From a virus, in the IMG/VR virus record IMGVR_UViG_3300044612_001159, positions 1-64,000 of that record: a stretch of DNA of 64,000 nucleotides, one strand, 5' to 3'. A program made the translations under genes and the position numbers. Within the stretch, counting starts at the first letter, position 1; each line of letters opens with the position of its first letter. Below the pieces are notes generated by a model. The model saw only the letters and a program-made list of their open reading frames with translations. It did not search any database and was not told the DNA's origin. This document shows positions 2,363 through 64,000 of this stretch, piece by piece.

Positions 2363-2390
2363 GTTTGAATTATATCATAGGACTTTTATC

Positions 2391-4246: not shown

Positions 4247-4251
4247 TTCTC

Positions 4252-39681: not shown

Positions 39682-39830
39682 ACGCCATATGGTAAAGGGT
39701 TCCCTACTCCACTATCCTCCACAATCCTCCACTTTAACCCTATCTAATAATATCATCAGTAACATTTTTCTGTGGATAAACCTGTGGATAACATACTTGA
39801 CAAACCATCCAAACCAGATATAATTGATAT
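39404..39830. other. 427-base non-coding region upstream of nuclease-like gene
   Basis: Holds the right half of the iteron-like repeats, a promoter at 39549-39577, a DnaA-box pair TGTGGATAA at 39771-39779 and 39783-39791, and TTGACA (39797-39802), 16 bases, TATAAT (39819-39824) for the next gene. A leftward open frame here has no start signal and is rejected. Confidence 0.6.
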
Positions 39831-42684: not shown

Positions 42685-42687
42685 GCC

Positions 42688-43002: not shown

Positions 43003-43029
43003 GTCTTTATTATACCCCGTCGAAAATGA

Positions 43030-43659: not shown

Positions 43660-43691
43660 TTATCTATTGTATCATAGGGTATAATTAATAT

Positions 43692-43787
43692 ATGAATGAA
43701 CAAAAAATAAAACAAAGCGTTAGGGCTTTAACAGTCCTATTTGGAATATTTATTGCCGTAACCATAATTGCAGCCATATTTGCTTGA
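43692..43787 (+). CDS. Membrane micropeptide, 31 aa
   Basis: MNEQKIKQSVRALTVLFGIF then a second hydrophobic part to AAIFA. TATAAT (43680-43685) six bases before the ATG. The TTGACA of the next promoter begins in its last codons. Confidence 0.58.
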   Translation: MNEQKIKQSVRALTVLFGIFIAVTIIAAIFA

Positions 43788-43818
43788 CATATAGCCATAA
43801 ACCTGTCATACTAGTAGT

Positions 43819-44334: not shown

Positions 44335-44357
44335 TAAGTTTTTTTTATTTTCCGCCA
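44307..44357 (+). terminator. Hairpin with T-run, second AACCGATAGTGC element
   Basis: CCCT-TGT-AGGG hairpin (44318-44328) followed after AATTGATAAG by a run of eight or nine T. The string AACCGATAGTGC (44307-44318) and TTTTCCGCC match the element at 40292-40342. It overlaps the last codons of the glycosylase-like gene. Confidence 0.55.
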
Positions 44358-44384
44358 AAATTTAAAACATGATATAATCTAGAT

Positions 44385-44510
44385 ATGGAAAAATCAAGGT
44401 GTCATTTTTGCGATAAAGAAGCACAATACTACGATGTTGTGCTAAAAAACGCCGAATACATTGTGGGCGATGTTTGCGTAGATCACCTTTCCGTAGAATT
44501 TGTATCCTAG
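44385..44510 (+). CDS. Small Cys/His protein, 41 aa
   Basis: MEKSRCHFCDKEAQYYDVVL then GDVCVDHLSVEF: C-x2-C plus C-x2-H, a zinc finger like those in DUF7455-type proteins. TATAAT (44373-44378) six bases before the ATG. Confidence 0.62.
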   Translation: MEKSRCHFCDKEAQYYDVVLKNAEYIVGDVCVDHLSVEFVS

Positions 44511-44533
44511 AAACTGGATGGTATAATAAAAAA

Positions 44534-45304
44534 ATGACATATAGTGCTGAAGACTACAAAGAAAGAAATGTAACTAAACTGGTAGAGATTTGGGAGCCAA
44601 GAAAAGAATACATTGAAAAAGACCTGTGGGTAATAAGAAACTTTCTTTCAGATGAAGAATTGGTTTGGTTAAATAAAGAAGCAAATAATCCAGTTGGGTG
44701 GTACACCACAATGAGATCACCTTATGGGGGTAATACTAAAAACAAATTTTTAGGTTATATACCAGATTACGATCCCGTCAGTGGGGCTATGCTTGTTCCT
44801 AAAGACAACTCTAGGTGGGGATACAAAGATCCCGTAGGATATTTTGAGCCTAGATTAGAGGCTGTAATGCCTAAGTATTTTGCTGGTGCTGGTGCACTTC
44901 AATCTTTTTTTGAAGTTCCTGAAGAGCAGATTATTGCAGAACTTGGCAGTACTGTTGACTATGCTATGGACTGGCACTGGGAAAGAGACGATAATGACGA
45001 TGAAGAGCAGCAAAGAACAATTGTAGTAAATTCAAAAACTCAAGGGAAAAGAATATTAAGTGAAGCAAAGATTTCTGCATCTTTGAGCATTTATATAAAT
45101 GATAACTTTGATGGTGGAGTTCTTGAGTTTAAGAATAAAGATTATGTAATCAATCCAGAGCCAGGCATGCTAGTTAATGTTCCTTTATATAAAGAGTTTG
45201 AGCATAGAGTTACAAAAGTTACTAATGGAAATCGACACACTATATATGGAAGATGTTGGGATAGTTTAGAAGGAATCTACAAGTCAACAGATGAAGACTG
45301 CTAA
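44534..45304 (+). CDS. 2OG-Fe(II) oxygenase with HxE motif and STDEDC tail
   Basis: 256 residues from the ATG at 44534 (TATAAT 44522-44527, six bases upstream). GWYTTMRSPYGGNTKNKF (55-72), MDWHWER with H148-W-E150, YINDNFDGGVLEF, H224, R234, end KSTDEDC. Close paralogue of the two genes at 50096 and 50783; all end ST-(K/D)-(D/E)-D-C. The shared ending suggests a conserved tail function, for example metal or disulfide formation. Confidence 0.86.
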   Translation: MTYSAEDYKERNVTKLVEIWEPRKEYIEKDLWVIRNFLSDEELVWLNKEANNPVGWYTTMRSPYGGNTKNKFLGYIPDYDPVSGAMLVPKDNSRWGYKDPVGYFEPRLEAVMPKYFAGAGALQSFFEVPEEQIIAELGSTVDYAMDWHWERDDNDDEEQQRTIVVNSKTQGKRILSEAKISASLSIYINDNFDGGVLEFKNKDYVINPEPGMLVNVPLYKEFEHRVTKVTNGNRHTIYGRCWDSLEGIYKSTDEDC

Positions 45305-45535
45305 ATGAATAAAAGAATATTAAAAGATGGATCAGAAGTAGATTCATATGATAAGCCAGTTGATTTAATTATTCATACAAAAGCACCTGGAAAATGGAAA
45401 TTAATAGATTTAGAAACTGGTCAAGAATATCTTGGATCAGAAATACCGCATGGTACATTTTCAGAAGTTTTAAGAAACAAAGTTTTAAATGGTATCATCG
45501 GCTCTTGGTTCAAAACCAAGGGTAGAGATATTTGA
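45305..45535 (+). CDS. Small protein, 76 aa
   Basis: MNKRILKDGSEVDSYDKPVD, W-K-L-I-D-L-ETGQEYLG. Starts immediately after the oxygenase stop, so same operon. Looks like a small beta protein; unknown. Confidence 0.6.
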   Translation: MNKRILKDGSEVDSYDKPVDLIIHTKAPGKWKLIDLETGQEYLGSEIPHGTFSEVLRNKVLNGIIGSWFKTKGRDI

Positions 45536-45566
45536 CAAACCAATCACAGTAAGGTATACTTAAAAT

Positions 45567-45818
45567 ATGGAACAATGGGTAAACGACTACGCATCATATG
45601 TGCTTGTTTTAAGCGGTGCTGCTGCTATGTTTGTAATTGGCAGAAAGAAAAGATTTGGCTGGCTTTGGTTTATATTTAATGAATTTATGTGGACTGCATA
45701 TGCTCTAATTACAAAGCAGTATGGGTTTATACTTGGTGCTATCCTGTATGGTGTAGTGGGAGTTAAGTCTTTCATTCATTGGAAAGAAAAAGATAAAACA
45801 GAAAGGTTAATGCATTAA
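45567..45818 (+). CDS. Small membrane protein, PnuC-like half
   Basis: 83 residues with three predicted membrane helices. WFIFNEFMWTAYALITKQYG ... GVVGVKSFIHWK resembles half of a PnuC-type nicotinamide riboside transporter, but it is too short to act as one alone. TTGACA-N17-TATACT and six bases to the ATG (leaderless). A phage membrane protein of unknown role. Confidence 0.55.
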   Translation: MEQWVNDYASYVLVLSGAAAMFVIGRKKRFGWLWFIFNEFMWTAYALITKQYGFILGAILYGVVGVKSFIHWKEKDKTERLMH

Positions 45819-45820
45819 TT

Positions 45821-45910
45821 ATGATTAGTTTATTTTTTTTAATTCCAGCATTTGTTGCTGGATATATAGTTTGTTACCTAGTTATGACCTGGGGAGTTGA
45901 TCAAAACTAA
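45821..45910 (+). CDS. Membrane micropeptide, 29 aa
   Basis: MISLFFLIPAFVAGYIVCYL then VMTWGVDQN: one membrane helix. Two bases after the previous stop. Small size keeps confidence low. Confidence 0.5.
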   Translation: MISLFFLIPAFVAGYIVCYLVMTWGVDQN

Positions 45911-45914
45911 GTTT

Positions 45915-46556
45915 TTAAGAAAGGCTATTTCTAAATTCACAAATATTTTTAAAAACTTCATCATTTGGCCATAATTTTTGTAAATCAGAATAGTCAGTCG
46001 GATTTTCTTTTTTTGCAAATCTAAAAAAAATCATTTTTACAAAATCTCCATCATTAAATATTTTGTTGGGTCGCCAGTGTGCAGTTTTATTTGGATTAAA
46101 AACTAGGGCAGAGTTGTTTTTAATTTCATAAGTTTCAAAATTTACACCAATATCCCATCTTGTGTTTGAGTCAAATTGATAGTTAACTATTAAGTCGTTA
46201 TTGTCACCATCATAATGCGGAGGCAGACTTGGTGTTCCATACCTAGAACTATATTCTACATATGTGATAGAGGATAGCGTTAGATCAAGGCCAGAGATAT
46301 AGTTTGCAAGTTTTGTCAATCTTATAGTGAGTGATTTGTCCGCAAGTTCTAAGTTTTTAACAGGAAATAAATCTGAAATATTATTGATATTAAATTGTAT
46401 TCTTCCGAGATACTTTGAAACAGAAATATATGAATCTTGATCATCAAATATAAAATTTCCATATTCGTCTTTTGGTGCTTCAAGATCTTTTGTTATATTA
46501 TTAAATATTGAAATTTCTTTTTCAGAAAGTAAATTATCAATAATTTTTGTATCCAT
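45915..46556 (-). CDS. 2OG-Fe(II) oxygenase
   Basis: 213 residues: LPPHYDGD with H114-Y-D116, NYQFDSNTRWDIG, NSALVFNPNKTAHWRP with distal H160, K174. Paralogue of the N-terminal domain of the 317-aa protein at 47811-48764 (LPPHFDS, NSALIFNPNEIIHWRP). TATAAT six bases before the ATG. Confidence 0.84.
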   Translation of the reverse strand: MDTKIIDNLLSEKEISIFNNITKDLEAPKDEYGNFIFDDQDSYISVSKYLGRIQFNINNISDLFPVKNLELADKSLTIRLTKLANYISGLDLTLSSITYVEYSSRYGTPSLPPHYDGDNNDLIVNYQFDSNTRWDIGVNFETYEIKNNSALVFNPNKTAHWRPNKIFNDGDFVKMIFFRFAKKENPTDYSDLQKLWPNDEVFKNICEFRNSLS

Positions 46557-46614
46557 TCTGTAATTATATCATGCAGAATTTGACAAAACTGCTATTTTAC
46601 GATAAAATTATATT

Positions 46615-46719
46615 ATGAGTAGACATATAACATGCCCAATTTGCAAAAAAGAGTGGGAACTAAGGTGGGGAATTATGGCAAATGAGTCCTTATCCAGACA
46701 TATGAAGGAGCATAAGTGA
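46615..46719 (+). CDS. C2H2-like zinc-finger micropeptide, 34 aa
   Basis: CPICKKEWELR ... LSRHMKEHK: C-x2-C and H-x4-H, a classical-looking zinc finger. TTGACA (46580-46585), N17, TAAAAT (46603-46608), six bases, ATG. A perfect leaderless promoter. Overlaps the HAD gene start by four bases. Confidence 0.65.
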   Translation: MSRHITCPICKKEWELRWGIMANESLSRHMKEHK

Positions 46720-47165
46720 AACCACTAGCACACATATACGATGTTGACGGAACTCTTGCGAATGTAGATCCATTTTTACACCATGTTCGTGGTGGCAACA
46801 AAGATTACGATGCTTTTCACTATTCTTCCATTGATGCCCTGCCAAATTTTGATGTAATTGAAATGTTAAATAATTCTTATAATGATAAATATTCAGTCAT
46901 CATTGTTACATCAAGAAAAGAAAAGTATCGTGGAATCACATCTCTATGGTTGCAAAAAAACAATGTAAGAAGCCATGCCCTGTTTATGAGAGCGGACAAT
47001 GACAACAGACCAGACTATGAAGTTAAAAAAGACATACTAGATAAAATAAATGAACTATGGAACGTAACACATGCAGTTGATGATAACCCACATGTAATAA
47101 AACTATGGGAAGAAAATAATATCCCTACCACAAAAATAGGCACATGGGACGGAGATCGTAGTTGA
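46716..47165 (+). CDS. HAD-superfamily phosphatase
   Basis: 149 residues, GTG start overlapping the zinc-finger stop. DVDGTLAN (9-16) motif I, VTSRKEKYR motif II, K in DYEVKKDIL and AVDDNPHV motif. Very like the phosphatase part of phage polynucleotide kinase 3'-phosphatases and acid phosphatases. Could remove 3'-phosphates from RNA or DNA ends; no kinase domain. Confidence 0.8.
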   Translation: MKPLAHIYDVDGTLANVDPFLHHVRGGNKDYDAFHYSSIDALPNFDVIEMLNNSYNDKYSVIIVTSRKEKYRGITSLWLQKNNVRSHALFMRADNDNRPDYEVKKDILDKINELWNVTHAVDDNPHVIKLWEENNIPTTKIGTWDGDRS

Positions 47166-47196
47166 CCTCAAGAGTTGGCTATGGTATGATTACTAT

Positions 47197-47367
47197 ATGA
47201 AAAAAACTAACAACAAAGTATCACAACATAAGGCAAAGCGTTACGCTAAAAATAAAAAGAGGCTTAAAGATAAACCACATCTTTCTAAGTTTGAGCGCCA
47301 ACAAATTGCAAAAAGGGCAGAAATTTTAGGCGCATCGTTGCAAAGCATGACTAACCATGCTAGATAA
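47197..47367 (+). CDS. Basic protein, 56 aa
   Basis: MKKTNNKVSQHKAKRYAKNK then a Lys/Arg-rich helix; likely binds nucleic acid. TTGACC (47162-47167), N17, TATGAT (47185-47190), six bases, ATG. Overlaps the next gene by 11 bases. Confidence 0.62.
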   Translation: MKKTNNKVSQHKAKRYAKNKKRLKDKPHLSKFERQQIAKRAEILGASLQSMTNHAR

Positions 47368-47620
47368 TATAATCAAACTTATATTTTCTTGGGAAAAACT
47401 TAGGCTTGCAGTTTTTGCTGAAGTAGATTGGTATAATTCAATTACCAGAACACTAAACGATCCAGACTCTATGAAAACTGCTTCCGCTTTTTGGTGTGAA
47501 GAAGATGGATGGCGTGGCTGGGGCATTAAAGATGATGGCTCATATTATTTTCACGATGTACCAGAAAAACACCTTAGTGATATATTTGATATAATAATAG
47601 ATAAAGAAACAGTATACTAA
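47357..47620 (+). CDS. Hypothetical protein, 87 aa
   Basis: Aromatic-rich (FSWEKLRLAVFAEVDWYN, WCEEDGWRGWGIKDDGSYYF). Not recognised. In the same rightward set as the CDGSH gene. Confidence 0.58.
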   Translation: MLDNIIKLIFSWEKLRLAVFAEVDWYNSITRTLNDPDSMKTASAFWCEEDGWRGWGIKDDGSYYFHDVPEKHLSDIFDIIIDKETVY

Positions 47621-47632
47621 AGGAGATGCAGT

Positions 47633-47818
47633 ATGGCATGTGGATGTGGATTTTCAACTGAGTACCCAGCCTGTAACGGAACTCATAAAGTTGTAAAGGC
47701 TGTAAAAGATAAAATTATTGCTGACATTGAGGCAATCGATATATCTGATGGAAAGTTAAACGGCTTGGGCATGAAAATGCTTGTGATTGAAGCGGTTAAA
47801 AAGGTAAAGGGTGTATGA
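47633..47818 (+). CDS. CDGSH-type iron-sulfur protein
   Basis: 61 residues. MACGCGFSTEYPACNGTH fits the CDGSH consensus position by position (C3-x-C5-x2-S8-x3-P12-x-C14-N15-G16-T17-H18), with Asn for Asp. Such proteins bind a labile 2Fe-2S cluster through three Cys and one His and take part in iron or redox handling. Phage examples are rare to my knowledge. AAGGAG before the start; it overlaps the next oxygenase by eight bases. Confidence 0.78.
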   Translation: MACGCGFSTEYPACNGTHKVVKAVKDKIIADIEAIDISDGKLNGLGMKMLVIEAVKKVKGV

Positions 47819-48764
47819 CTTGACTATTTTTTACAACGAATGCGTAAAAAATAAAAATGTTTGGAAAATAGAAAATGTTTTTTCAGATACAGAATTAAAA
47901 AACATTTATGAAAAAGTTAATCAAAAAAGAAACGAGTTTGATGAAAATTTTGTTTTTCATGGAGACTCTAGCCTAGAAGATGTAAGCGGAATAGGACCAG
48001 ATCCAGACCTTGGCAGGTTTAGAATTGGAAGAATAGAAATAACACAAGAAGTTTTTAAAAAAATAAACGATTTATTAAAAGATAAAACAAATAAAAATTT
48101 AAAACTAAGCGGTATAAGTTGTGTTGAATACAGCAATGAATACGGGGATCCAAATTTACCACCACACTTCGATTCTTGCGAAACAGATTTAATTATAAAC
48201 TTTCAATTACAATCTAATACCGAATGGGAGTTAGGATTAAATTTAGAAGTTTATAAACTCGAAGACAATTCAGCATTAATTTTTAATCCTAATGAAATAA
48301 TTCACTGGAGGCCTTTTAAAAAATTTAAAGATCAAGAGTTTGTCAAGATGATTTTTTTTAGATTTACAGATTACAAAACAGACAATAGTCATTTAATGCT
48401 AAGTCAAGACGACGAAATTTTTAGCGAAGTTCTTAAATATAGAATGAGTTTGTGTCATAACTTACAAGACTGTGACTGCTTTTGTGATGATTGCAAAAAG
48501 GCACAAAAAAATATTATAGATAAAATTATTGAAGAGTATAGAACTTGTCCAAATATAGTTCAATCAGAAGACAGACTATTTTGTTATACATGGTGGAGAC
48601 ATGACGATTGTGAAAGAATTAGAGAGTTGTTGTATAGGATTACTAAAAATCGTTTATATACCCTGCCAGAAATAAGACCATCAGTTAGTACTGCCATAGA
48701 AGAAATGATTAATGATCCAGATACCGCAGAAATATTACGAAGACTTGAAGACAGCGGTATTTGA
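47811..48764 (+). CDS. 2OG-Fe(II) oxygenase with Cys-rich C-terminal domain
   Basis: 317 residues from a GTG at 47811 (a TTG three codons on is possible). Oxygenase domain 1-205: H119-F-D121, NSALIFNPNEIIHWRP with H165, K179. Residues about 214-270 add CHNLQDCDCFCDDCKKA and further Cys/His, likely a metal-binding module, and a helical end. Paralogue of 45915-46556 plus this extension. It overlaps the CDGSH gene, suggesting that cluster and enzyme are made together. Confidence 0.8.
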   Translation: MYDLTIFYNECVKNKNVWKIENVFSDTELKNIYEKVNQKRNEFDENFVFHGDSSLEDVSGIGPDPDLGRFRIGRIEITQEVFKKINDLLKDKTNKNLKLSGISCVEYSNEYGDPNLPPHFDSCETDLIINFQLQSNTEWELGLNLEVYKLEDNSALIFNPNEIIHWRPFKKFKDQEFVKMIFFRFTDYKTDNSHLMLSQDDEIFSEVLKYRMSLCHNLQDCDCFCDDCKKAQKNIIDKIIEEYRTCPNIVQSEDRLFCYTWWRHDDCERIRELLYRITKNRLYTLPEIRPSVSTAIEEMINDPDTAEILRRLEDSGI

Positions 48765-48789
48765 CAAGCAGTACAATACAAACTATAAT
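48761..48789 (+). promoter_or_regulatory. tRNA operon promoter
   Basis: TTGACA (48761-48766), 17-base spacer, TATAAT (48784-48789), eight bases before the first tRNA. Consensus-like, suited to strong expression of the three tRNAs and the following kinase gene. Confidence 0.7.
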
Positions 48790-48797
48790 TAAATAAT

Positions 48798-48874
48798 GGA
48801 GCAGTAGCCAAGTTGGTCAAGGCCCCGAACTCATAATTCGGCTATCGTAGGTTCAAGTCCTACCTGCTCTACCA
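48798..48874 (+). tRNA. tRNA-Met (CAT)
   Basis: Acceptor GGAGCAG/CTGCTCT, D-stem GCC/GGC, anticodon stem CCGAA/TTCGG around CTCATAA (anticodon CAT), T-arm GTAGG-TTCAAGT-CCTAC, encoded CCA end. Could be elongator Met or a lysidine-modified Ile; sequence alone does not decide. Confidence 0.85.
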
Positions 48875-48875
48875 T

Positions 48876-48948
48876 GTCTCCATCGTCTAGTGGCCTAGGA
48901 CTCTGCCCTTTCACGGCAGCAACACGGATTCGAATTCCGTTGGAGATA
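48876..48948 (+). tRNA. tRNA-Glu (TTC)
   Basis: Acceptor GTCTCCA/TGGAGAT, anticodon stem CTGCC/GGCAG around CTTTCAC (TTC), T-arm ACGGA-TTCGAAT-TCCGT. CCA not encoded. One base after tRNA-Met. Confidence 0.87.
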
Positions 48949-48952
48949 CAAT

Positions 48953-49024
48953 ACCTCTGTAACTCAGCGGAAGAGTAGCGGACTTCTAATCCGTTTGTCG
49001 CAGGTTCGATTCCTGCCAGGGGTG
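48953..49024 (+). tRNA. tRNA-Arg (TCT)
   Basis: Acceptor ACCTCTG/CAGGGGT, anticodon stem GCGGA/TCCGT around CTTCTAA (TCT, reading AGA), T-arm GCAGG-TTCGATT-CCTGC. AGA is used often in this AT-rich phage, so the tRNA fits codon supply. Confidence 0.87.
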
Positions 49025-49046
49025 CTATAATAGTTTTGGAGGAATA

Positions 49047-49805
49047 ATGATTATACAAATTATAGGTTTGCCTGGATCTGGCAAGACTGCATTAGCGACG
49101 GCACTTAAAGAAAGAATTAATGCCATACATCTTAATGCTGATGAGGTAAGGTCTACAGTTAATTCTGATCTTGGTTTTACCGCCGAAGATAGGATTGAGC
49201 AGGCTCGTCGCATGGGAGAGATGGCAAGGTTAATTGCAAATCAAGGTGTTGCTCCTGTCATTGTTGACTTTGTTTGTCCTACTAATGAAACTAGAGAAGC
49301 CTTTGGTCCAGCAGATGTTGTTGTTTGGGTAGATAGAGTTAAGCAGGGCAGGTTTGAAGATACAAACAAAATGTGGCAAGACCCAGAAAGATTTGATATC
49401 AGAATTCTAGACGGATACACATTAGATCAGGAAGTAGACACTGTAATACAGGCTGGTGCCTTGTTTGATTGGTCTGCCCCAACAACTCTTCAGTTAGGAA
49501 GATATCAGCCTTGGCATGAAGGGCATCAGGCTCTCAAAGAAGAGGCTCACAAAAGAACTAAGCAGGTATTAGTAGGTGTTCGCAATACATACAAGACATC
49601 AGAAAAGGATCCATTGAAGTATGATGAGGTTGCAACATATATTCAGCAAGATAATCCATTTAAGGATACATTAGTATTACGACTGCCAAATATTACAAAT
49701 ATTGTTTATGGTCGTGATGTAGGCTATAAGATTGAACAAGTAGATTTGGGAGCAAACATTCATGCTATATCGGCTACGCAAAAGCGTAAAGAAATGGGCA
49801 TCTAA
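49047..49805 (+). CDS. APS-kinase-like / nucleotidyltransferase fusion
   Basis: 252 residues. P-loop GLPGSGKTAL (7-16) and HLNADEVR, ARLIANQG fit adenylylsulfate kinases. Residues about 147-252 are a HIGH-superfamily nucleotidyltransferase: LGRYQPWHEGH (150-160) and AISATQKRKEMG (about 241-251). APS kinase makes PAPS; ATP sulfurylase makes APS, so the order resembles eukaryotic PAPS synthase but the second domain is much shorter and could instead be an NMN-type adenylyltransferase. Partner for the sulfotransferase-like protein (inference). GGAGGAATA ribosome site after tRNA-Arg. Confidence 0.75.
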   Translation: MIIQIIGLPGSGKTALATALKERINAIHLNADEVRSTVNSDLGFTAEDRIEQARRMGEMARLIANQGVAPVIVDFVCPTNETREAFGPADVVVWVDRVKQGRFEDTNKMWQDPERFDIRILDGYTLDQEVDTVIQAGALFDWSAPTTLQLGRYQPWHEGHQALKEEAHKRTKQVLVGVRNTYKTSEKDPLKYDEVATYIQQDNPFKDTLVLRLPNITNIVYGRDVGYKIEQVDLGANIHAISATQKRKEMGI

Positions 49806-49838
49806 AATATTAGATAAAATAGGCAATGATAAAATTGA

Positions 49839-50051
49839 GTGGCCTTCGTGAAAGTAACTAGGGCAAGATCATTTGTTAAGGCACTAAGTTACCGCATATG
49901 GGGAACTCTTTCTTCATTTGTTGTTGCCTTTGTGATTACAAAAAATGCTACAATATCAGGAGCAATCGCTTTTTGGGAAACAGTAATTAAAGTATTTATC
50001 TACTATGCCCATGAGCGTGGCTGGAACTATATACAGTGGGGGAGAAGGTAG
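49839..50051 (+). CDS. DUF2061 membrane protein
   Basis: 70 residues, GTG start (a second GTG three codons on). RSFVKALSYRIWGTLSSFVV ... KVFIYYAHERGWNYIQWG is the DUF2061 pattern: two membrane helices and a YxHER motif. A paralogue occurs at 60662-60880. In bacteria the gene often lies next to sulfate-assimilation (CysC/CysN) genes, which fits the APS-kinase neighbour. Confidence 0.78.
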   Translation: MAFVKVTRARSFVKALSYRIWGTLSSFVVAFVITKNATISGAIAFWETVIKVFIYYAHERGWNYIQWGRR

Positions 50052-50095
50052 TTTTTCTGATCTAATCAGAAACAAAACTATGGTATCATATCCAT

Positions 50096-50779
50096 ATGGA
50101 AAAAATATATCTAGATGAAGATAAACAGGTTTGGGTCATTGAAGACTTTTTAACAAAAGAAGAACTAGAATGGTTCAAAACACAAACAGACGATGAACTT
50201 GGCTGGTATCCAACAATGAGGTCGCCTTATAAAAATATACTAAATAAATTTTTAAATGTTGTTCCTAAATATGATGAAAACGGAAATATAGAATTTCCAA
50301 ATGAAGCATCTGAGGTTATAGACCTTCCAGTATTTACAAGACCAAATGGCGTATGGCAAAGACTTGAGTCTGTTCTTCCTCCATCATACCGCAGACATGC
50401 CACACTTCAAAGTTTTAAATATATGACAGATGATCAAATAAAAGAAAATTTAAATATGGATATAATAAATTCATATAACATAGATGATAAAAATATAGAC
50501 TTTGCTATGTATTGGCATGAAGATCCAGGCCATGAGCAAAATATTGTATGCTCCTTTAGTTTGTATCTTAATGATGATTACGAGGGCGGAGAATTAGAGT
50601 TTGCTGAAGTTCCGATTAAGTTAAAGCCAAAGGCTGGAACGCTTGCCGTAATTCCTGGAGGACATAAATATAGGCACAGAGTTAATAAAGTGTTAGGCCC
50701 AAATTCAAGACATACTCTTTACGGAAACTCTTATATAGACCCCTCAATAGTTGTTGCAAGCACAAAGGATGACTGTTAA
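50096..50779 (+). CDS. 2OG-Fe(II) oxygenase
   Basis: 227 residues. GWYPTMRSPYKNILNKF, MYWHEDPGH with H141-E-D143, YLNDDYEGGELEF, H194, R205, end STKDDC. TATCAT six bases before the ATG. Its HxD differs from the HxE in its two paralogues. Confidence 0.86.
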   Translation: MEKIYLDEDKQVWVIEDFLTKEELEWFKTQTDDELGWYPTMRSPYKNILNKFLNVVPKYDENGNIEFPNEASEVIDLPVFTRPNGVWQRLESVLPPSYRRHATLQSFKYMTDDQIKENLNMDIINSYNIDDKNIDFAMYWHEDPGHEQNIVCSFSLYLNDDYEGGELEFAEVPIKLKPKAGTLAVIPGGHKYRHRVNKVLGPNSRHTLYGNSYIDPSIVVASTKDDC

Positions 50780-50782
50780 ATT

Positions 50783-51490
50783 ATGGAAAAAGTATATTTA
50801 GATGAAGGCCTATGGTATATAGAAAACTTTTTAAAAGAAAATGAATTGTTTTTGTTAAAAAAATATTGTGATGATCCAAACCATTGGTACACGACTATGC
50901 GTTCTCCATATAAGAACATATTAAACAAATGGCCTATGAGTGAACCTAGATATGATGAAGATGGCACACTTGCAATTCCAAACCAAGATGATCCAGTTAT
51001 AGAAGAAGTTTTTAATATTTTTAGCGGCCCAGAAGGGATATTTGAAAGACTGAGATCTGTGCTTCCAGAAGGATACGCACCAAACAGCGGGATTCAAACA
51101 TTCAAATATTGTACAGACGAAGAAATAAAAAGAGATAGAGACGAAAGTATGTCTCTTGGCAATGCAGAAATGTTTGCAGTTAGATCTAATCCCGATAGCG
51201 CAGAAGATATTGACTATGCTATGGATTGGCACTGGGAAGATACAGGTGCTACTGGTAGTAGGATTGCATCACACTCAATATACTTGAATGATGACTTTGA
51301 AGGTGGCTACATAGAATTTAAAAAAGGCTATATAGTAAAGCCAAAGGCTGGCATGTTAATAAATATTCCGATTGGCAAAGAATTTACCCACAGAGTAACA
51401 AAAGTTCTTGGACCAAACTCAAGGCACACGCTATACGGTCAGTGCTGGTCTGATAATAATATAGTACTTAGTACAAAAGACGATTGCTAA
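50783..51490 (+). CDS. 2OG-Fe(II) oxygenase with HxE motif
   Basis: 235 residues. HWYTTMRSPYKNILNKW, MDWHWED with H150-W-E152, YLNDDFEGGYIEF, H203, R214, end STKDDC. Three bases after its paralogue, so a tandem duplication. The replacement of Asp by Glu is also found in the gene at 44534. Confidence 0.86.
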   Translation: MEKVYLDEGLWYIENFLKENELFLLKKYCDDPNHWYTTMRSPYKNILNKWPMSEPRYDEDGTLAIPNQDDPVIEEVFNIFSGPEGIFERLRSVLPEGYAPNSGIQTFKYCTDEEIKRDRDESMSLGNAEMFAVRSNPDSAEDIDYAMDWHWEDTGATGSRIASHSIYLNDDFEGGYIEFKKGYIVKPKAGMLINIPIGKEFTHRVTKVLGPNSRHTLYGQCWSDNNIVLSTKDDC

Positions 51491-51531: not shown

Positions 51532-52335
51532 ATGAAATCTATATATGATATCGAATTGGAGTCTGCTGAAGGAGAATCACACTTCTTGCAGCAATTTAAA
51601 GGCAAAGCAGTATTGCTTATCAACACAACAGTTGGTTGTGGAAACGCTGGTCAAATGGAGTCTATTCAGTGGATTCAAGAAGATCTTGCTGGAGATGACT
51701 TTACTGTTGTTGCAATTCCAACAAATGACTTCTGTGGTCCTAGCATTACAAAAGGAAAGTGGTCAAAAGGTATCACTTGTGGTTTAGACTCAAAGAATTA
51801 CGGAATAGATGTGTATGGTGTTACATTCCCATTCTCAGAAATGATTACATCTAATCCCGCAGATATTCCACTAGAAGCCCCTTGGCTTGGTAAAGGTCCA
51901 GGACTTAACGGAAATGGTCAACCATTTGGAGAAAGACATGAACTTTATCTAGAAGTTTCAAGACAAATTTTGGAAATAATGAATAAGAAAAAAGAACTTG
52001 GTATAGTTGAAAAAACAGATTATGAGTCAAGATATTTAAACGAACATAATGGCGGATTCATGATGAATGCTAACTTTGAAAAATATCTAATTGATAAAGA
52101 TGGATATGTGGTTAAGCATTATCCTGCTACAACATTGAACTGGGATGTTGAGCGCACACTCAAAGAAGATCTAATAGCAAAAGGACAAGATCCAAAAATG
52201 GGTCCAGATAGATCTGAATACATTTTCAATGAGGAAAATGCTGTTATCCGTGACCATATCGAAAGATTGATGGCTGGAGAAAAATCAATCATTAATCCAG
52301 CATATGTCGATGCAGACGAACTAGTTGCTGTTTAA
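51532..52335 (+). CDS. Glutathione-peroxidase-like protein (long variant)
   Basis: 267 residues. LLINTTVGCGNAGQME (29-43) with C36 in the place of the peroxidatic Cys of GPx and IPTNDFCGPS in place of the FPCNQFG segment. It has a long insert and a C-terminal extension, and the Trp/Asn of canonical GPx are not clear, so activity may differ. Strong AGGAGG site and TATAAT upstream. Pairs with the canonical GPx gene next to it. Confidence 0.68.
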   Translation: MKSIYDIELESAEGESHFLQQFKGKAVLLINTTVGCGNAGQMESIQWIQEDLAGDDFTVVAIPTNDFCGPSITKGKWSKGITCGLDSKNYGIDVYGVTFPFSEMITSNPADIPLEAPWLGKGPGLNGNGQPFGERHELYLEVSRQILEIMNKKKELGIVEKTDYESRYLNEHNGGFMMNANFEKYLIDKDGYVVKHYPATTLNWDVERTLKEDLIAKGQDPKMGPDRSEYIFNEENAVIRDHIERLMAGEKSIINPAYVDADELVAV

Positions 52336-52358
52336 TAAATTAGTTATTAATAAAAACT

Positions 52359-52401
52359 ATTCTCTCCTATGATATACTTAGTATAGAACATAGGAGAGAA
52401 T
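52359..52401 (+). promoter_or_regulatory. Hairpin with internal promoter and ribosome site
   Basis: Perfect 13-bp inverted repeat ATTCTCTCCTATG / CATAGGAGAGAAT with a 17-base loop that holds TATACT and a small ATACT/AGTAT palindrome. T-run after the right arm. Could terminate the upstream RNA, while the loop contains a -10 for the next gene and the right arm holds its AGGAGA ribosome site, which would be freed only in transcripts started in the loop. Confidence 0.6.
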
Positions 52402-52405
52402 TTTT

Positions 52406-52840
52406 ATGAACATATATGATTTATCATTTATAGACAACAATAAAAATGTTGTAGAATTAAAAAACTTTAAGGATAAAAATATTCTTATTGTAAACACAGC
52501 AAGCAAATGTGGATACACCTCACAATATGCAGACTTGCAAAAGGCACAAAGTGATTCGCTAGTCGTTATTGGATTTCCTTGTAATCAGTTTGGCAACCAA
52601 GAGCCAGACTCCAATGAAGTTATTAAACAATTTTGTACAACTAACTTCGGAGTAACATTTCCCATCTCTGAAAAAATAGAAGTAAATGGTCCAAATGCAC
52701 ACCCAATATATAAATACTGTAAAGATCAGGCTACTGAAGGTAGGGACATTGGCTGGAATTTTGAAAAATTTTTAGTGTCTACTGATGGGTCTATTAGACA
52801 TTATCCTAGTTCATATAAAGTATCCGATATTGCAGTATAG
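52406..52840 (+). CDS. Glutathione peroxidase family protein
   Basis: 144 residues. NTASKCGYTSQY (30-41) with C35 as peroxidatic Cys, GFPCNQFGNQEP (Q61), GWNFEKFL (W117, N118): the complete Cys-Gln-Trp-Asn set of GPx/BtuE. Reduces hydroperoxides using thioredoxin or a thiol. Positioned before AhpC/AhpD, with thioredoxin gene nearby. Confidence 0.9.
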   Translation: MNIYDLSFIDNNKNVVELKNFKDKNILIVNTASKCGYTSQYADLQKAQSDSLVVIGFPCNQFGNQEPDSNEVIKQFCTTNFGVTFPISEKIEVNGPNAHPIYKYCKDQATEGRDIGWNFEKFLVSTDGSIRHYPSSYKVSDIAV

Positions 52841-52844
52841 CCCC

Positions 52845-52935
52845 TATAATGCTATAATAGTAGTAAGGGTGTAGTTAGCCTATATTTGTCGGGAAACACT
52901 TATAGCCTATGTTGCAACACTACACCCCCTATTTT
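52845..52935 (+). ncRNA. Structured leader or small RNA before ahpC
   Basis: TATAAT boxes at 52845-52850 and 52853-52858, then GGGTGTAGT (52867-52875) pairing with ACTACACCC (52919-52927) around a 43-base interior that holds two TAGCCTAT direct repeats, ending in CCCCCTATTTTT. It looks like a transcript with a long-range stem and U-rich end: an attenuator, riboswitch-like leader or small RNA. No known family recognised. Confidence 0.5.
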
Positions 52936-52962
52936 TGATCAAACATAAAAGAAAGAGATATA

Positions 52963-53535
52963 ATGAAAACAATTGGATATAAATTAAATCCGTTTCGCAT
53001 TGTTGGTGTAAAGCCAGGAAGACTAGATGGTGCTGATGATGTTTTTGAAACATTAAACGAGAAATGGTTTCCAGGAAAATGGAAAGTTCTTGTGTATTAC
53101 CCTAAAGATTTTACCTTTGTGTGTCCCACAGAAATTGTTGCTTATGACAAACTTGTAAATGATTTTAATGATCGTGATGCAGTATTACTGACAGGATCAA
53201 CAGATAATGAATTCTGTAAGGTTGCGTGGCGCAATGCCCATGAAGATCTGAAGAAAACCAACTCGTGGTCTTTTGCTGACCAGGTTCGCAATTGGCAATA
53301 TAATGGAGATGATGAAGGGTACACTGGTTTAGCAGAACAACTTGGAGTTCTCAATGAAGACGGAGTTGCCCTTCGTGCAACCTTTATTATTGATCCAGAC
53401 AATATTATTCAGCATGTTACAGTCAACAATCTAAATGTTGGTCGTAGTCCTGAAGAAACATTGCGTATTCTTGATGCTCTTCAAACAGGAGAACTCTGTG
53501 CTTGCAATAGAAGTCTCGGTGGAGAAACCTTGTGA
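52963..53535 (+). CDS. ahpC: Peroxiredoxin AhpC
   Basis: 190 residues. YYPKDFTFVCPTEI with peroxidatic C54, resolving Cys in GELCACN (C179/C181), and FIIDPDNIIQHVTVNNLNVG. Actinobacterial AhpC type, reduced by AhpD. GAAAGAGATATA precedes the ATG. Overlaps ahpD (TGTGA), the usual actinobacterial pair. Confidence 0.92.
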   Translation: MKTIGYKLNPFRIVGVKPGRLDGADDVFETLNEKWFPGKWKVLVYYPKDFTFVCPTEIVAYDKLVNDFNDRDAVLLTGSTDNEFCKVAWRNAHEDLKKTNSWSFADQVRNWQYNGDDEGYTGLAEQLGVLNEDGVALRATFIIDPDNIIQHVTVNNLNVGRSPEETLRILDALQTGELCACNRSLGGETL

Positions 53536-54044
53536 GTTGGGTAGACGAAGTAAAGGAAATTGTTCCTGAGTATGCTAAAGATATTAAATTAAATCTTGAT
53601 GCTGTAATCAACAGAAGTGCTTTTGATTACGATTATTCTTCATCTCTCGCACTTGCAGCAGCCCTTGCAACAGGTAATCAGGACATTGTCGCTATGGTTT
53701 CTGCTGGTGTTACAGATGAGGTAGAAAAAAATGCAGCCTTTACTGCAGCAGCATTGATGGCACAGAATAATGTTTGGTATCCATATACAGAGATGGCAGA
53801 TGATCCTAATTTAACTGGATTGCCTGCACAACTTAGAATGAATGCCATAGCGTCTCACGGTGGTACAACAAAAGATAAGTTTGAAGCATATGCATTAATA
53901 GCATCAATTATTGGTAAGTGTCATTTTTGTGTTAAGGCTCACTACGAGACCTTAAAGAAAGAAGGATACACAACTGAACAACTTCGTGATATTGGGAGAA
54001 TTGCTGCAACGATTAATGCTATTGCTAAAGTCGTAGTAGCGTAA
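53532..54044 (+). CDS. ahpD: AhpD-like alkylhydroperoxidase partner
   Basis: 170 residues, GTG start overlapping the ahpC stop. IIGKCHFCVKAHYETLKKEG with C130-x2-C133 and H137, the AhpD active site. In actinobacteria it transfers electrons to AhpC. Followed by tRNA-Thr. Confidence 0.9.
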   Translation: MSWVDEVKEIVPEYAKDIKLNLDAVINRSAFDYDYSSSLALAAALATGNQDIVAMVSAGVTDEVEKNAAFTAAALMAQNNVWYPYTEMADDPNLTGLPAQLRMNAIASHGGTTKDKFEAYALIASIIGKCHFCVKAHYETLKKEGYTTEQLRDIGRIAATINAIAKVVVA

Positions 54045-57867: not shown

Positions 57868-58133
57868 AATTCTTTTCCTCCCTCTCTAACTAACTGAACA
57901 ATTGCCCCATTCTGCTCAAGAGCCTTCTTTGTTTTAATCATATAGTTTGCAGCACGAATCTTGTCATCATGACTTAAAAGCATAAAAGATTTTTCAGACG
58001 CACGAACAGTTAAAAATCCTTCTTGATGCTCAACTATCTGTAATGAAAAACCTTTAGGCGCTAAATGATCTAGTGACCTAAACGCCCTTCTCATTGCATC
58101 TGTATATACTAGTCCATTGTTAGAGACTGCCAT
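57864..58133 (-). CDS. Small protein, 89 aa
   Basis: ATG at 58133. NNGLVYTDAMRRAFRSLDHL then a beta-alpha pattern ending VQLVREGGKEL. Overlaps WhiB by 25 bases. Not recognised. Confidence 0.58.
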   Translation of the reverse strand: MAVSNNGLVYTDAMRRAFRSLDHLAPKGFSLQIVEHQEGFLTVRASEKSFMLLSHDDKIRAANYMIKTKKALEQNGAIVQLVREGGKEL

Positions 58134-58390
58134 GTTACACCCCAATCAGCCTTTGTTTTATGATTAGAGAACTCTTTTGATATTTCGCCGTTTTCTAAGT
58201 ATACCCCGCCCCAAACTCCCCACTCTTTGCCAGAAATGCCCACAGAAAAACACTCTTTTCTTACTGGACATTCAGAACATAACAGGTCTACAGCAGGCCT
58301 TAACAACTCATCTTCTTCGTATTTATCAAAAAAAACATTAGTATCATAATCTAGGCATGCAGCATTATCTTTCCATTCATACCTATTCAT
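58109..58390 (-). CDS. WhiB-family regulator
   Basis: 93 residues. Four Cys in the WhiB arrangement (C12, C38-x2-C41-x5-C47) bind a 4Fe-4S cluster, followed by GVWGGVYL (58-65). WhiB proteins are found only in actinobacteria and their phages; they act with the sigma factor. Strongest host marker in this window. May control late or superinfection genes. Its cluster is redox-sensitive, a link to the peroxide genes. Confidence 0.93.
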   Translation of the reverse strand: MNRYEWKDNAACLDYDTNVFFDKYEEDELLRPAVDLLCSECPVRKECFSVGISGKEWGVWGGVYLENGEISKEFSNHKTKADWGVTWQSLTMD

Positions 58391-60662: not shown

Positions 60663-60880
60663 TATTTAACCTTTCTGCCAAACTTGGCCCATACTCTTTC
60701 ATGCAAATAAAAGAATGTCATTTCTAGTGCTAGATATGATAGCCCATAAAGACCAACATATTCCCACTCTGCTTCTCCAGTATAATATTTAAGTACAAAA
60801 TAAATTATTCCAGAAACAAAAGTAAAATGTACAAACGGCCAACTAATAGTCTTCAACAAAGACTTCTTTTTTGATTCCAT
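60662..60880 (-). CDS. DUF2061 membrane protein (copy 2)
   Basis: 72 residues with two membrane helices and FFYLHERVWAKFG, the HERxW motif of DUF2061, as in 49839-50051 (YYAHERGWNYI). Here beside the endolysin, in contrast to the other copy beside the APS kinase. One-base overlap with the endolysin. Confidence 0.72.
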   Translation of the reverse strand: MESKKKSLLKTISWPFVHFTFVSGIIYFVLKYYTGEAEWEYVGLYGLSYLALEMTFFYLHERVWAKFGRKVK

Positions 60881-61521
60881 TATAGCGCTACCTGTGCCTT
60901 TCCTCCACCGCCACCAGCAACCTTCTTCTTCTTTTTCTTTGCAGCAGGCTCTGCAGATGTTGCAGTATCAGATGAACCAACCTTACTCAATAGCGGAAGG
61001 CTTTCTTCTCCAGCGTATACTGGTCTTCCCCATCCAACAACAGCATTAACCAACTTCTTCTTGTTGTTCTTAACATATGCACGAGTTTTCTCTACACACA
61101 TTCCACCATTGCGCTGGTCTCCCTTTGCAGTTCCAGAGGTATTGCCTTCGATGACTTGAATAGTTCCATCACCATTATTCTTAATACAAAGACCAACATG
61201 CGAAATACGATTTACGCCATCTTCTGGGAAATCAAAATAAATCCAATCACCTGGAGTTGGATCGTCGTTTCTGGCATCTGCCCAACGATCATTCTTCTTA
61301 AACCAATCAGACGCTGCAACAGTTGCTGCGGTCTTTGGATATTTCTTTGGATCTAGCCCTGCAGTAAATGCACACCAAGAAACAAATGATTGACACCATG
61401 GCAAAAAGTTTGCACCTGTCCACTTACCATACTTTGTCTCATTATCTTTTGGACCCTCAATAGTTCCGAGTTCCTTTTTTGCAACCTCAATGATTGCTTC
61501 TAAACTACCTTTAACTGCCAT
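60880..61521 (-). CDS. CHAP-domain endolysin
   Basis: 213 residues. LPWCQSFVSWCA (C43 as catalytic Cys), ISHVGLCI (H108) and IQVIEGN (E125/N127) form the CHAP amidase/endopeptidase site, residues 5-165. The C-terminus is Lys-rich and ends GGGGGKAQVAL, like the tail of the holin candidate. Cleaves peptidoglycan peptides at lysis. AAGGAGGAATAT precedes the start. Confidence 0.88.
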   Translation of the reverse strand: MAVKGSLEAIIEVAKKELGTIEGPKDNETKYGKWTGANFLPWCQSFVSWCAFTAGLDPKKYPKTAATVAASDWFKKNDRWADARNDDPTPGDWIYFDFPEDGVNRISHVGLCIKNNGDGTIQVIEGNTSGTAKGDQRNGGMCVEKTRAYVKNNKKKLVNAVVGWGRPVYAGEESLPLLSKVGSSDTATSAEPAAKKKKKKVAGGGGGKAQVAL

Positions 61522-61671: not shown

Positions 61672-62544
61672 TTAATTACGAATATATGATGTATTGCCAA
61701 TTAAAATCTTTGACAAAGATGAAAAATACTCTGTAAAAGTTTTAAATGTATTACGGCTTACATATGAGGCAGCAGACACTGCAGTTGCTACTGAACTTCC
61801 AGCAGTTGATGTTGGAGATCCATTATATTTAGTAATTTTAACCGAACCAGGAGCAACCATATCAAGACCAGGGCCTGTATTTGTTGCTGCCTCTAGTTGA
61901 GTTGCGCTACCAAGTGCACCAACACCTGTCACTCCACTAACGCATGACGGAAACCCAACAACGTCTCGTCGTCGGTCATTTCCTACCGCAACAAATACTG
62001 GAACATTGCTTGCGGTTAAAGATGACACAGCATTGATGGTAACTGTATCGTTTGTACATAGTGCAAGGTTTCCTGCACTTACTGAAGACTGGCTAACTGA
62101 AAGAGCATCAATACTGTACTTAGCAGCATTCTTTGATACCCAGTCAAATGCTAATGCCAAGGCTCTTGCATCTCCCCTTGAATTTCCAAGTGATGTAACA
62201 TCATTAAATCTAATAAAAACAATCTTTAGATTTGGATTAACAGTTAGGGCAGACTTTACCATTGCATCGCCGTGGTATGTAGCATTGTTGATTGATGCTG
62301 GCCATGGGGCAGACGCTGCACCCTTGCCCTCCATAAACAACTCTCCATTAGGGCAAGACATGTTTTGAGAAGCAATCTTTGACTTTACAGTTGTAAAGCA
62401 AACCTCATGAATAATTTGAGGGAAGTTATTAGAATTGATAGCAGTATCAATAATTGCCAAAACTCTTTCATCGTTTGCTTGTACTGGCTGTACTGTGCTA
62501 ATTACGAATAGTGCTGATAGTATTGCTAGTAGTGCCTTTTTCAT
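61672..62544 (-). CDS. Secreted subtilisin-like (S8) protease
   Basis: 290 residues. Signal peptide 1-23 (LLAILSALFVISTVQPVQA). Catalytic-type residues: D33 in LAIIDTA, H91 in TYHGDAMV, oxyanion N189 in VAVGND and S251 in AGSSVATAV (replacing G-T-S-M-A). Secreted serine protease, perhaps acting on cell-surface proteins; unusual in a phage. ACAAGGAG precedes the ATG. Confidence 0.82.
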   Translation of the reverse strand: MKKALLAILSALFVISTVQPVQANDERVLAIIDTAINSNNFPQIIHEVCFTTVKSKIASQNMSCPNGELFMEGKGAASAPWPASINNATYHGDAMVKSALTVNPNLKIVFIRFNDVTSLGNSRGDARALALAFDWVSKNAAKYSIDALSVSQSSVSAGNLALCTNDTVTINAVSSLTASNVPVFVAVGNDRRRDVVGFPSCVSGVTGVGALGSATQLEAATNTGPGLDMVAPGSVKITKYNGSPTSTAGSSVATAVSAASYVSRNTFKTFTEYFSSLSKILIGNTSYIRN

Positions 62545-62569: not shown

Positions 62570-62752
62570 TTATTCTTTTATTCTTACAACTAATTGGCAT
62601 GGGTCGCCTCCTGCTTCCCACTCTTCTTGTTCTTCTTCACTCATGTAGGGATCTCCATCATGAGTGTTACAGAATGGCTCTGTTATCCATCCTCGCTCAA
62701 TACCATTTGAAAGCCAGATACCGAACTCGTCTAGATCTTCATCTTCTATCAT
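62570..62752 (-). CDS. Small acidic protein, 60 aa
   Basis: MIEDEDLDEFGIWLSNGIER then MSEEEQEEWEAGGDPC. Very acidic, possibly a DNA mimic. TATACT six bases before the ATG (leaderless). Similar small proteins occur in actinophages as I recall. Confidence 0.65.
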   Translation of the reverse strand: MIEDEDLDEFGIWLSNGIERGWITEPFCNTHDGDPYMSEEEQEEWEAGGDPCQLVVRIKE

Positions 62753-62775
62753 ATTATAAGTATACCCAACAATAC

Positions 62776-63306
62776 CTAGTTTGTCAATTCGCCAATATAA
62801 TTTAAATTAATAATACATCTAATCTTAGAGTCTGTTTGTGATACTCCAGAATGCATTACATTTGAATCAAACATAACAAGCCTATTTTCTACACTGTCTA
62901 CTTTTGATCCGTCTTCAAAAATGGTATATCCATTATTACTATTTAAATAAAATATTGCTGTTGTATTATTAAACTCAGTATCTGAATGCATGCCACCAAC
63001 TACTGGGACGCTTGTCCTTGTGCCAAGATTCACCTTTACTCTATATATGTATGAAGGATTTATTTTTTTTATTAACGGATCTAATACATTATAAAAATCT
63101 GATTTAATTTCATTTTTTAGACATAGTGTATTAAAAAATTGAAACTTATCTAGTCCATACTCTTCGTCTGAAGACACCACAATTGGACTATAAAACCAAG
63201 GGAAATTACCACCTAGAACGGTATTCTGAATAGTTTTAAAATCATTTTCATTTAAAAAGTTATCTAAAATTTTAATTTTTTCTCCTAAAACTTTAAGCAG
63301 TAACAA
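62776..63306 (-). CDS. 2OG-Fe(II) oxygenase
   Basis: 176 residues: GGMHSDTEF with H107-S-D109, YLNSNNGYTIF, MFDSNVMHSG with H152, R163. Smallest oxygenase of the set; lacks the NDDYEGGEL segment. Overlaps the Ntn-hydrolase gene by 14 bases, so both come from one regulated promoter. Confidence 0.82.
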   Translation of the reverse strand: MLLLKVLGEKIKILDNFLNENDFKTIQNTVLGGNFPWFYSPIVVSSDEEYGLDKFQFFNTLCLKNEIKSDFYNVLDPLIKKINPSYIYRVKVNLGTRTSVPVVGGMHSDTEFNNTTAIFYLNSNNGYTIFEDGSKVDSVENRLVMFDSNVMHSGVSQTDSKIRCIINLNYIGELTN

Positions 63307-63817
63307 CGTCTACTGGACCCATGCAAGATGGGCTAAACTTAATTGCTGCACTTACAGCCTGAAGCACTCTGTTTCTTGCATTTTTTTGCTTATCTGTTGC
63401 ATATAAAACACCATACGCATATTCCGCCCCAGATCCCATTGCGATATATGGGGTAGAGTATTTAGATAAAGACATGTCTACAGCACTGTGTTCATAAATC
63501 TCTCCACGAACTGCAATAATTAAACCAAGGTCTCCATCTTTTGTGGTATCAACCCAAAACTCATTATAGAACTCTCTCAGTTCTTTAATGAATTTAGTCT
63601 GCATAAATTTATCTGTATCCTTAATATTGGGTGCGGTTGGCTTAAAATTGTAACGAATTCTTTCTCCGTCTAATGCCCCAGCATATCCAATAAGGTATGG
63701 ACCTATCTTCCAAACCTTGGGTGCTTCAAGAGCAAGGATCGTTCCATCATCAGATGCACCACGATCTCCTGCCATGTAAACTTTACCTTCGTGTTTTAAT
63801 ACAGCAATACAGGTCAT
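63293..63817 (-). CDS. Proteasome-like Ntn hydrolase
   Basis: 174 residues. After removal of Met the chain starts with Thr: T1, D17 (AGDRG) and K33 (EAPK) sit exactly at the proteasome beta-subunit triad positions, and AMGSGAEYAYG matches the later GSG-x-x-Y/A-A-x-G element. Shorter than beta subunits and closer to HslV-like proteins. No propeptide and no ATPase partner here. Could be a phage protease acting on host or virion proteins. SD GGAGGGGC before the ATG. Confidence 0.8.
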   Translation of the reverse strand: MTCIAVLKHEGKVYMAGDRGASDDGTILALEAPKVWKIGPYLIGYAGALDGERIRYNFKPTAPNIKDTDKFMQTKFIKELREFYNEFWVDTTKDGDLGLIIAVRGEIYEHSAVDMSLSKYSTPYIAMGSGAEYAYGVLYATDKQKNARNRVLQAVSAAIKFSPSCMGPVDVVTA

Positions 63818-63824
63818 GCGAAAA

Positions 63825-63888
63825 GCCCCTCCAGATAGGTATAGTTAAGTATACCATTCCCTGAAGGGGCCGTCAAGTAGGCTCAATA
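63825..63888 (-). promoter_or_regulatory. Promoter and palindrome upstream of the Ntn hydrolase
   Basis: TTGACG-N17-TATACT on the minus strand, with the perfect palindrome GGTATA-N6-TATACC (63838-63855) covering the -10, and GCCCCT/AGGGGC outer arms (63825-63830, 63865-63870). Operator over the -10 suggests repression of the protease and oxygenase pair. Confidence 0.6.
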
Positions 63889-63892: not shown

Positions 63893-64000
63893 CTAATTAG
63901 CCTTTTTATCTACCGTTTTAAACGCTTCATTTATTTCTGATATTGTGAGTTTTCCATCGTCCAAAAAAGCCCTTGCAAGCCTTTCAACAACAGAAGCAAC
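63893..64000 (-). CDS. Partial gene at right edge (C-terminal 35 aa)
   Basis: Open leftward from the window edge to TAG at 63893: VERLARAFLDDGKLTISEIN and a Lys-rich end. The N-terminus lies outside. Helical; not identifiable. Confidence 0.55.
   Translation of the reverse strand, partial: VASVVERLARAFLDDGKLTISEINEAFKTVDKKAN

Follow-up and report, generated by a model that had tools for sequence, protein, structure and literature searches.

The gene at one end of the window (by which we mean the whole stretch of DNA analysed here, bases 1 to 64,000 of a record that totals 115,665 bp) raises the question of what a proteasome-like protein does in a phage, and with which partners. Its product reads MTCIAVLKHEGKVYMAGDRGASDDG...APKVW, and the gene is the only proteasome-like one in the whole record (Table 1). 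A search for an AAA+ unfoldase or an HslU-like ATPase across all 115,665 bp found none, which extends to the complete record what a sequence-only reading had stated about the absence of an AAA+ partner; the ORFs with an ATPase-looking Walker A motif are DnaB-like, RecA-like and one small kinase. Two observations make an actinobacterium the most likely host, as the sequence-only reading had supposed: the terminase of this phage shares 55% identity with its counterparts in Streptomyces phages of the Stanwilliamsviridae, among them Genie2 and Yaboi, and the window carries a WhiB gene (58109-58390; PF02467, 46.2 bits), whose family has been described as confined to actinobacteria and their phages (PMC10611076).

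Table 1. Features of the locus, in coordinates of the window
Feature	Position	Strand	Remarks
Proteasome-like Ntn-hydrolase ORF	63293..63817	(-)	ATG start, 174 aa, MTCIAV...; PF00227, phrog_1040, AlphaFold2 model, match to BPH 5ovs
Codon of Thr1 (ORF residue 2), predicted nucleophile once Met is removed	63812..63814	(-)	Invariant in 164/164 and 63/63
Codon of Asp17 (ORF residue 18)	63764..63766	(-)	Invariant in 63/63
Codon of Lys33 (ORF residue 34)	63716..63718	(-)	Invariant in 63/63
Shine-Dalgarno sequence GGAGGGG	63826..63832	(-)	8 nt before ATG
Hairpin enclosing the -10 element, 48 nt	63824..63871	(-)	12-bp outer stem, 6-bp inner stem; Shine-Dalgarno sequence in 3' arm, then TTTT
Sigma-70-type promoter TTGACG-17-TATACT	63848..63876	(-)	-35/-10 positions kept in nearly all relatives
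TM94, small holin-like membrane protein	63893..64000, runs on to record position 64177	(-)	phrog_443 holin, E 4.4e-4; phrog_26427, 2.4e-25
Small 2OG-Fe(II)-oxygenase-like ORF	62776..63306	(-)	PF13640, 17.5 bits, below cut-off 27; 3/37 loci
Acidic 60-aa ORF, usual downstream neighbour	62570..62752	(-)	37/37 loci, 23/24 TerL-selected loci; own promoter TTGACA-17-TATACT (62759-62787)
Secreted subtilisin-like (S8-type) protease candidate	61672..62544	(-)	phrog_3677 protease, 2.1e-10; D/H/S motifs by eye; 29/37 loci
CHAP endolysin	60880..61521	(-)	PF05257, 42.6 bits; endolysin PHROGs

By sequence comparison and structure prediction, the product of the gene is an Ntn-hydrolase of the proteasome family. 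It scored 24.1 bits against Pfam PF00227 (Proteasome; cut-off 22.4) and matched phrog_1040, 'peptidase HslV family', with an E-value of 1.3e-21. The AlphaFold2 model, computed from a 63-sequence alignment, reached a mean pLDDT of 91.5 and a pTM of 0.87. Used as a query against the PDB, it returned 1059 matches at E <= 0.001, the best being BPH (5OVS; E 4.6e-12, TM 0.80), followed by HslV and then by 20S beta chains; the model and these matches display the four-layer alpha-beta-beta-alpha Ntn fold. A PDB profile search with a 14-row profile of relatives found BPH (8.7e-15) and HslV (9.7e-15), and one with the 63-row alignment at an E-value cut-off of 1e-10 gave no match. The sequence-only reading had called the protein a phage proteasome-like Ntn hydrolase and had proposed structure prediction as a check; the family searches, the profile matches and the model all bear the assignment out.

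When the Thr after Met is counted as residue 1, Asp falls at position 17 and Lys at position 33, without a gap relative to HslV and proteasome beta subunits, and the stretch GSGAEYAYG is present after the triad region, so that the exact register described from the letters alone was confirmed. A start codon elsewhere, with Thr no longer N-terminal, had been named as the observation that would speak against the proposal. In all 80 closest relatives, however, ATG (GTG once) is followed by Thr; in most of them the frame is closed by a stop 5-20 codons further upstream, with no second start available. Position 2 is Thr in 164 of 164 relatives. The protein begins Met-Thr and a propeptide is absent; such a start is compatible with Met removal by methionine aminopeptidase. 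In the 63-row alignment, whose most distant members share 20% identity, M1, T2, D18, K34, G44, D114, G128, G130, G136 and P168 (ORF numbering) do not vary, and the oxyanion position and the residue-129 and residue-166 positions are variable across the family. Among 57 distinct close genes T2, D18 and K34 showed no variation; with medians of 0.049 for dN/dS and 0.92 for dS, the gene is under strong purifying selection. The protein is probably catalytic.

Two of the 22 new proteasome homologs described by Fuchs, Alva and Lupas in 2021, PPH and AAH, occur in phages; these authors found neither a function nor an AAA+ partner for either, and no Actinobacteria-specific phage carrier of AAH (PMC8665760). 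PPH has about 140 residues and lacks helix H2 (PMC8665760), whereas the window protein has 174 residues and both H1 (51-57) and H2 (68-87) are predicted in its model. Its predicted secondary structure has instead the anatomy of AAH, a compact subunit with H1-H4, without a propeptide and without S12/H5, and the AlphaFold2 model has no C-terminal helix. The likeness to AAH thus covers size, the MT start without a propeptide, H1 and H2, the compact C-terminus, the T1/D17/K33 triad and the best profile match. In the profile comparison (hhalign) AAH came first with an E-value of 2.9e-27, ahead of the T5-like phage proteins (2.9e-22), the DSL-LC01 type (5e-16), PrcB (3.7e-7) and HslV (4.3e-5), the last two sets being very small. 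The AAH set used here consists of the common phage type MTCIVGL...TSSFRMGQ, which a genome scan located in Rhizobium, Mesorhizobium, Azospirillum, Actinomadura, Frankia and some Firmicutes; because this distribution is that of AAH, we infer that the set represents AAH. The identity to AAH is nevertheless only about 20-34%, and the window protein has YAGALD where AAH has (F)TSSFRMGQ, and GSG where AAH has GCG. In a 54-row tree the window clade (100/100) occupies its own branch of 3.79 changes per column and falls outside both the AAH clade (93/90) and the DSL-LC01 clade (98/96), its exact position being unsure on account of the long branches.

The remaining relatives are more distant or differ in setting. 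The phage proteins of phrog_1040 (from T5-like Salmonella and E. coli phages, Vibrio and Aeromonas) belong to the same PHROG and have the same triad register, but they are 25-37% identical to the window protein and lie in another neighbourhood (nrd, thyA, rnh). Proteasome-like proteins were already present in two other actinophages, Actinomycetia phage DSL-LC01 (an HslV-like protein, OQ999401) and Gordonia phage Daredevil (A0A345MIR8), so that the window does not provide the earliest example; the DSL-LC01 type (MTTIVAVQ, AAGDVRA, K/R-rich tail) forms a separate clade, and the Daredevil protein is a structural match only (TM 0.75). This second proteasome-like clade was also seen in actinophage-like contigs (loci L085 and L101-L103), with the start MTTIVAVQ..., an Asp at the D166 position and, in DSL-LC01, a Lys/Arg-rich tail. 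A bacterial genome scan with the DSL-LC01 type found no loci, and single-protein scans with distant phage members found few or none. Streptomyces phage Genie2 was tried as a carrier in view of its related terminase and gave no match, in a search that had no positive control.

Among cellular proteins, BPH (beta-proteobacterial; 5OVS, 5OVT, 5OVU) offers the best solved structure and the best PDB profile match, and it too has no propeptide. The two are, however, 16-23% identical, and BPH forms a double ring of 14 subunits and has a long acidic pore loop, whereas the corresponding loop of the window protein (about residues 88-97) is short. Since purified BPH was inert in standard activity assays although its Thr1 is exposed (PMC5777263), activity of the window protein cannot be assumed. 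HslV and actinobacterial PrcB share the fold and the triad register, and the N-terminal third of the window protein is similar to that of PrcB (MAGDR, GYAG), but the scores lie far under the curated cut-offs, with 20.8 bits against 157.75 for HslV (TIGR03692) and 17.3 against 191.9 for the bacterial 20S beta subunit PrcB (TIGR03690). Neither the HslU partner of HslV nor the propeptide before Thr1 and the alpha-subunit partner of PrcB was found in the protein or the record. Members of the wider family occur in phages of Salmonella, E. coli, Vibrio, Aeromonas, Moorella and Tenacibaculum, hosts that are not known to have a 20S proteasome.

The sequence-only reading had placed the gene behind a promoter with a palindromic operator. 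Both the predicted promoter and the palindrome (GGTATAgTTAAgTATACC, 63838-63855) are present, but the palindrome is better read as part of a hairpin that would block read-through. A repressor operator is not favoured, as the palindrome is exact in 16 of 80 relatives, has one exact copy in the window and makes up the inner stem within a larger, conserved hairpin. The -35 element lies just before this hairpin, the -10 element in its apical part and the Shine-Dalgarno sequence in its 3' arm, followed by TTTT and the ATG. The read-through transcript was predicted to fold with -28.0 kcal/mol (z -5.06; 0/200 shuffles), and the RNA begun at the internal promoter to fold weakly. Of the 56 distinct upstream regions of relatives, 47 pair the Shine-Dalgarno sequence completely and 9 do not, and several fold weakly. 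The sequence of the stem varies while its pairing is kept (GCCCCTTCAG/CTGAAGGGGC, GCCCTCTCTGG/CTGGAGAGGGC and CCCCTCCTGGG/CTGGGAGGGG); native arm pairs gave -20.57 kcal/mol against -16.95 +/- 0.38 kcal/mol for permuted arms (0/500), in a set of sequences that are related and not independent. The median leader fold was -28.3 kcal/mol, compared with -5.1 to -11.2 kcal/mol for the leaders of eight further genes in these phages, and a hairpin this stable is found at no other promoter of the record.

This arrangement resembles that of T4 gene e (lysozyme), where the long early read-through RNA buries the ribosome site and transcripts from the local promoter leave it free (PMC3014915). Here, too, prediction and co-variation point to a Shine-Dalgarno sequence paired on the read-through RNA and, with the local promoter at the 5' arm of the hairpin, to a local transcript without that arm. 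The two cases differ in that the promoter here is of sigma-70 type, the gene is that of a peptidase, and the regulation is a prediction. The promoter nested in a hairpin, newly seen in this study, would constitute a compact switch against read-through, of the kind known from T4 gene e. With a T-tract that is short, at 4 T, the stem could also terminate transcription; on either reading the gene would be insulated from the upstream operon, because the hairpin would block the Shine-Dalgarno sequence or terminate. Since selection keeps such a block, untimely expression of the gene appears to be costly. Elsewhere in the window, strong promoters of the form TTGAC-N17-TAnnnT with a -10 element ending about 6 nt before the ATG were observed at 39797-39824(+), 45532-45560(+), 47162-47190(+), 48761-48789(+) and 62759-62787(-), and TTGAC..TATACT was observed 4 times against 0.21 expected. 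Leaderless mRNAs are common in actinobacteria, and the short spacing between -10 and ATG fits such mRNAs.

The setting of the gene is constant among its closer relatives. Across the 37 loci whose flanks were long enough, TerS and TerL are followed by two secreted proteins, a pair of small membrane proteins (one holin-like) and the proteasome-like gene, after which come the acidic ORF, the subtilisin-like secreted protease and the CHAP endolysin; in the window phage the gene lies about 4 kb after terL, and TM94 is its neighbour in 31 of the 37 loci. We also assembled 24 loci chosen by terminase and not by the proteasome-like gene, each with at least 6 kb downstream. Because the gene is present in all 24, it is a core gene of these phages and not a passenger. 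The kind of protein is already catalogued; what is new is a divergent core lineage in actinophages, located between holin-like and endolysin genes. The acidic ORF, for which family searches gave no match, is a candidate co-factor or substrate of the proteasome-like protein. The subtilisin-like candidate gave no Pfam match.

The sequence-only reading had paired the gene with a small oxygenase. That ORF is real in the window, but since it occurs in only 3 of the 37 related loci we rejected it as a functional partner and regard it as accessory. Its best match is phrog_274, labelled 'DNA endonuclease V', which is probably a mislabel. It is one of more than 10 2OG-Fe(II)-oxygenase-like ORFs recognized by eye, the others lying at 1-5735, 15089-15700 and 41562-51490. 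Also by eye, an antioxidant-like cluster was noted at 51532-54044 (+), with two glutathione-peroxidase-like ORFs, a peroxiredoxin and an AhpD-like ORF. At 5823-6779 (-) an ORF ends in a long PFFPPFFPFF tandem repeat; the plus strand of this DNA reads GKNGKNG repeats, so that either frame may be the one that codes for the repeat.

Outside this lineage the surroundings change. In T5-like phages the family gene is set among the genes for ribonucleotide reductase (nrd), thymidylate synthase (thyA) and RNase H (rnh), and in distant relatives, many of them prophages, the terminase large subunit, an HNH endonuclease and the portal are common direct neighbours. Because the setting differs between phage groups, the function of the family is probably tied to no single neighbour. 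In two Vibrio phages (L093, 2633-3130, and L100, 2283-2771) a gene for peptide deformylase lies less than 1 kb upstream of the proteasome-like gene, where it would help to expose the N-terminal Thr.

Of the options raised by the sequence-only reading, we prefer that of a stand-alone protease. In the version that we propose, and in which our belief and our doubt are evenly balanced, the protein would be a catalytically competent N-terminal Thr peptidase, a group I homolog (BPH/HslV/AAH/PPH) that self-assembles, has no unfoldase of its own and is expressed from its own insulated promoter; this rests on sequence, modelling and analogy. Host enzymes would deformylate the protein and remove Met, freeing Thr1 with no need for a propeptide, and Asp17 and Lys33 would activate Thr1. 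By analogy with BPH, self-assembly into a ring or double ring that encloses the active sites seems most likely. Unfolded or short substrates could then be cut without a dedicated AAA+ unfoldase, by the protein alone or with a housekeeping host chaperone. Only its own promoter would give rise to the protein: RNA reading in from the terminase/holin operon upstream would fold the hairpin, bury the ribosome-binding site and may terminate, and internal-promoter transcripts, which would not include the 5' arm of the hairpin, would be translated. Expression would in this way be independent of the operon upstream, much as it is for the T4 lysozyme gene.

The main rival, which we regard as possible, though on balance unlikely, is that the protein is no general protease but acts on one phage or host target, such as a lysis or late protein, as a specific processing enzyme or a connectase-like transpeptidase, perhaps in monomeric form. 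The lack of an unfoldase in the record, the 174-residue chain without H5/S12 elements and the conserved position between holin-like and endolysin genes would all suit such an enzyme, and connectase demonstrates that the fold is capable of this role (PMC8665760). Neither the sequence nor the model, however, contains a connectase-like signature insertion between S3 and S4, and the nucleotide-metabolism and terminase settings in other phages leave no constant neighbour as substrate. Quite unlikely, in our estimate, is an extension of the stand-alone protease in which it belongs to the lysis programme, is released only at a set time by the switch and cleaves specific host or lysis proteins as a timer of lysis or takeover; we know of no proteasome homolog with such a role. 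Ntn enzymes are chemically diverse, and together with the variable oxyanion, residue-129 and residue-166 positions this could indicate another amide-hydrolase chemistry (acylase or amidase) on the Ntn fold with Thr1, or a catalytically silent scaffold. We judge this decidedly unlikely, as the nearest folds are all proteasome-group peptidases and an invariant triad would hardly be expected of a silent scaffold.

That the protein matures proheads or virions as a protease, or is itself part of the virion, is very improbable. The distance from terL in the window phage and the terminase large subunits, HNH endonucleases and portals that adjoin distant relatives would be in keeping with it, but the record appears to hold its own prohead-protease-like ORF in the structural region (104233-105570, by eye), which makes this role unlikely for a second gene; HK97-type prohead proteases also adjoin distant relatives (by eye), T5-like phages keep the gene among nrd, thyA and rnh, and the predicted promoter and block against read-through from the upstream operon do not fit either. 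The proposal of the sequence-only reading that the protein competes with or replaces subunits of the host 20S proteasome is scarcely credible, as is the variant in which it inserts into or caps the proteasome: an actinobacterial host and the PrcB-like N-terminal third (MAGDR, GYAG) are outweighed by a score of 17.3 bits where the bacterial 20S beta model demands 191.9, a profile E-value of 3.7e-7 to PrcB against 2.9e-27 to AAH, and the missing propeptide and C-terminal H5, and a proteasome-linked role cannot be the function of the family because its wider members occur in phages of hosts without a 20S proteasome.

Phage proteasome homologs have been catalogued, none with a known substrate or role; we found no paper on their function in the literature, and no activity reported for any phage member. 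The lineage described here is abundant in lake metagenomes and belongs to a group of freshwater viruses, most likely of actinobacteria, all of which carry the gene with an intact triad. It shows that divergent proteasome homologs can be a fixed component of the genomes of actinophages, something that the 2021 survey had not found for AAH. The constant setting among lysis genes, together with a clear predicted regulatory switch, provides testable hooks for the role of such proteins, namely the timing of expression, a T1A mutant and the neighbouring genes.
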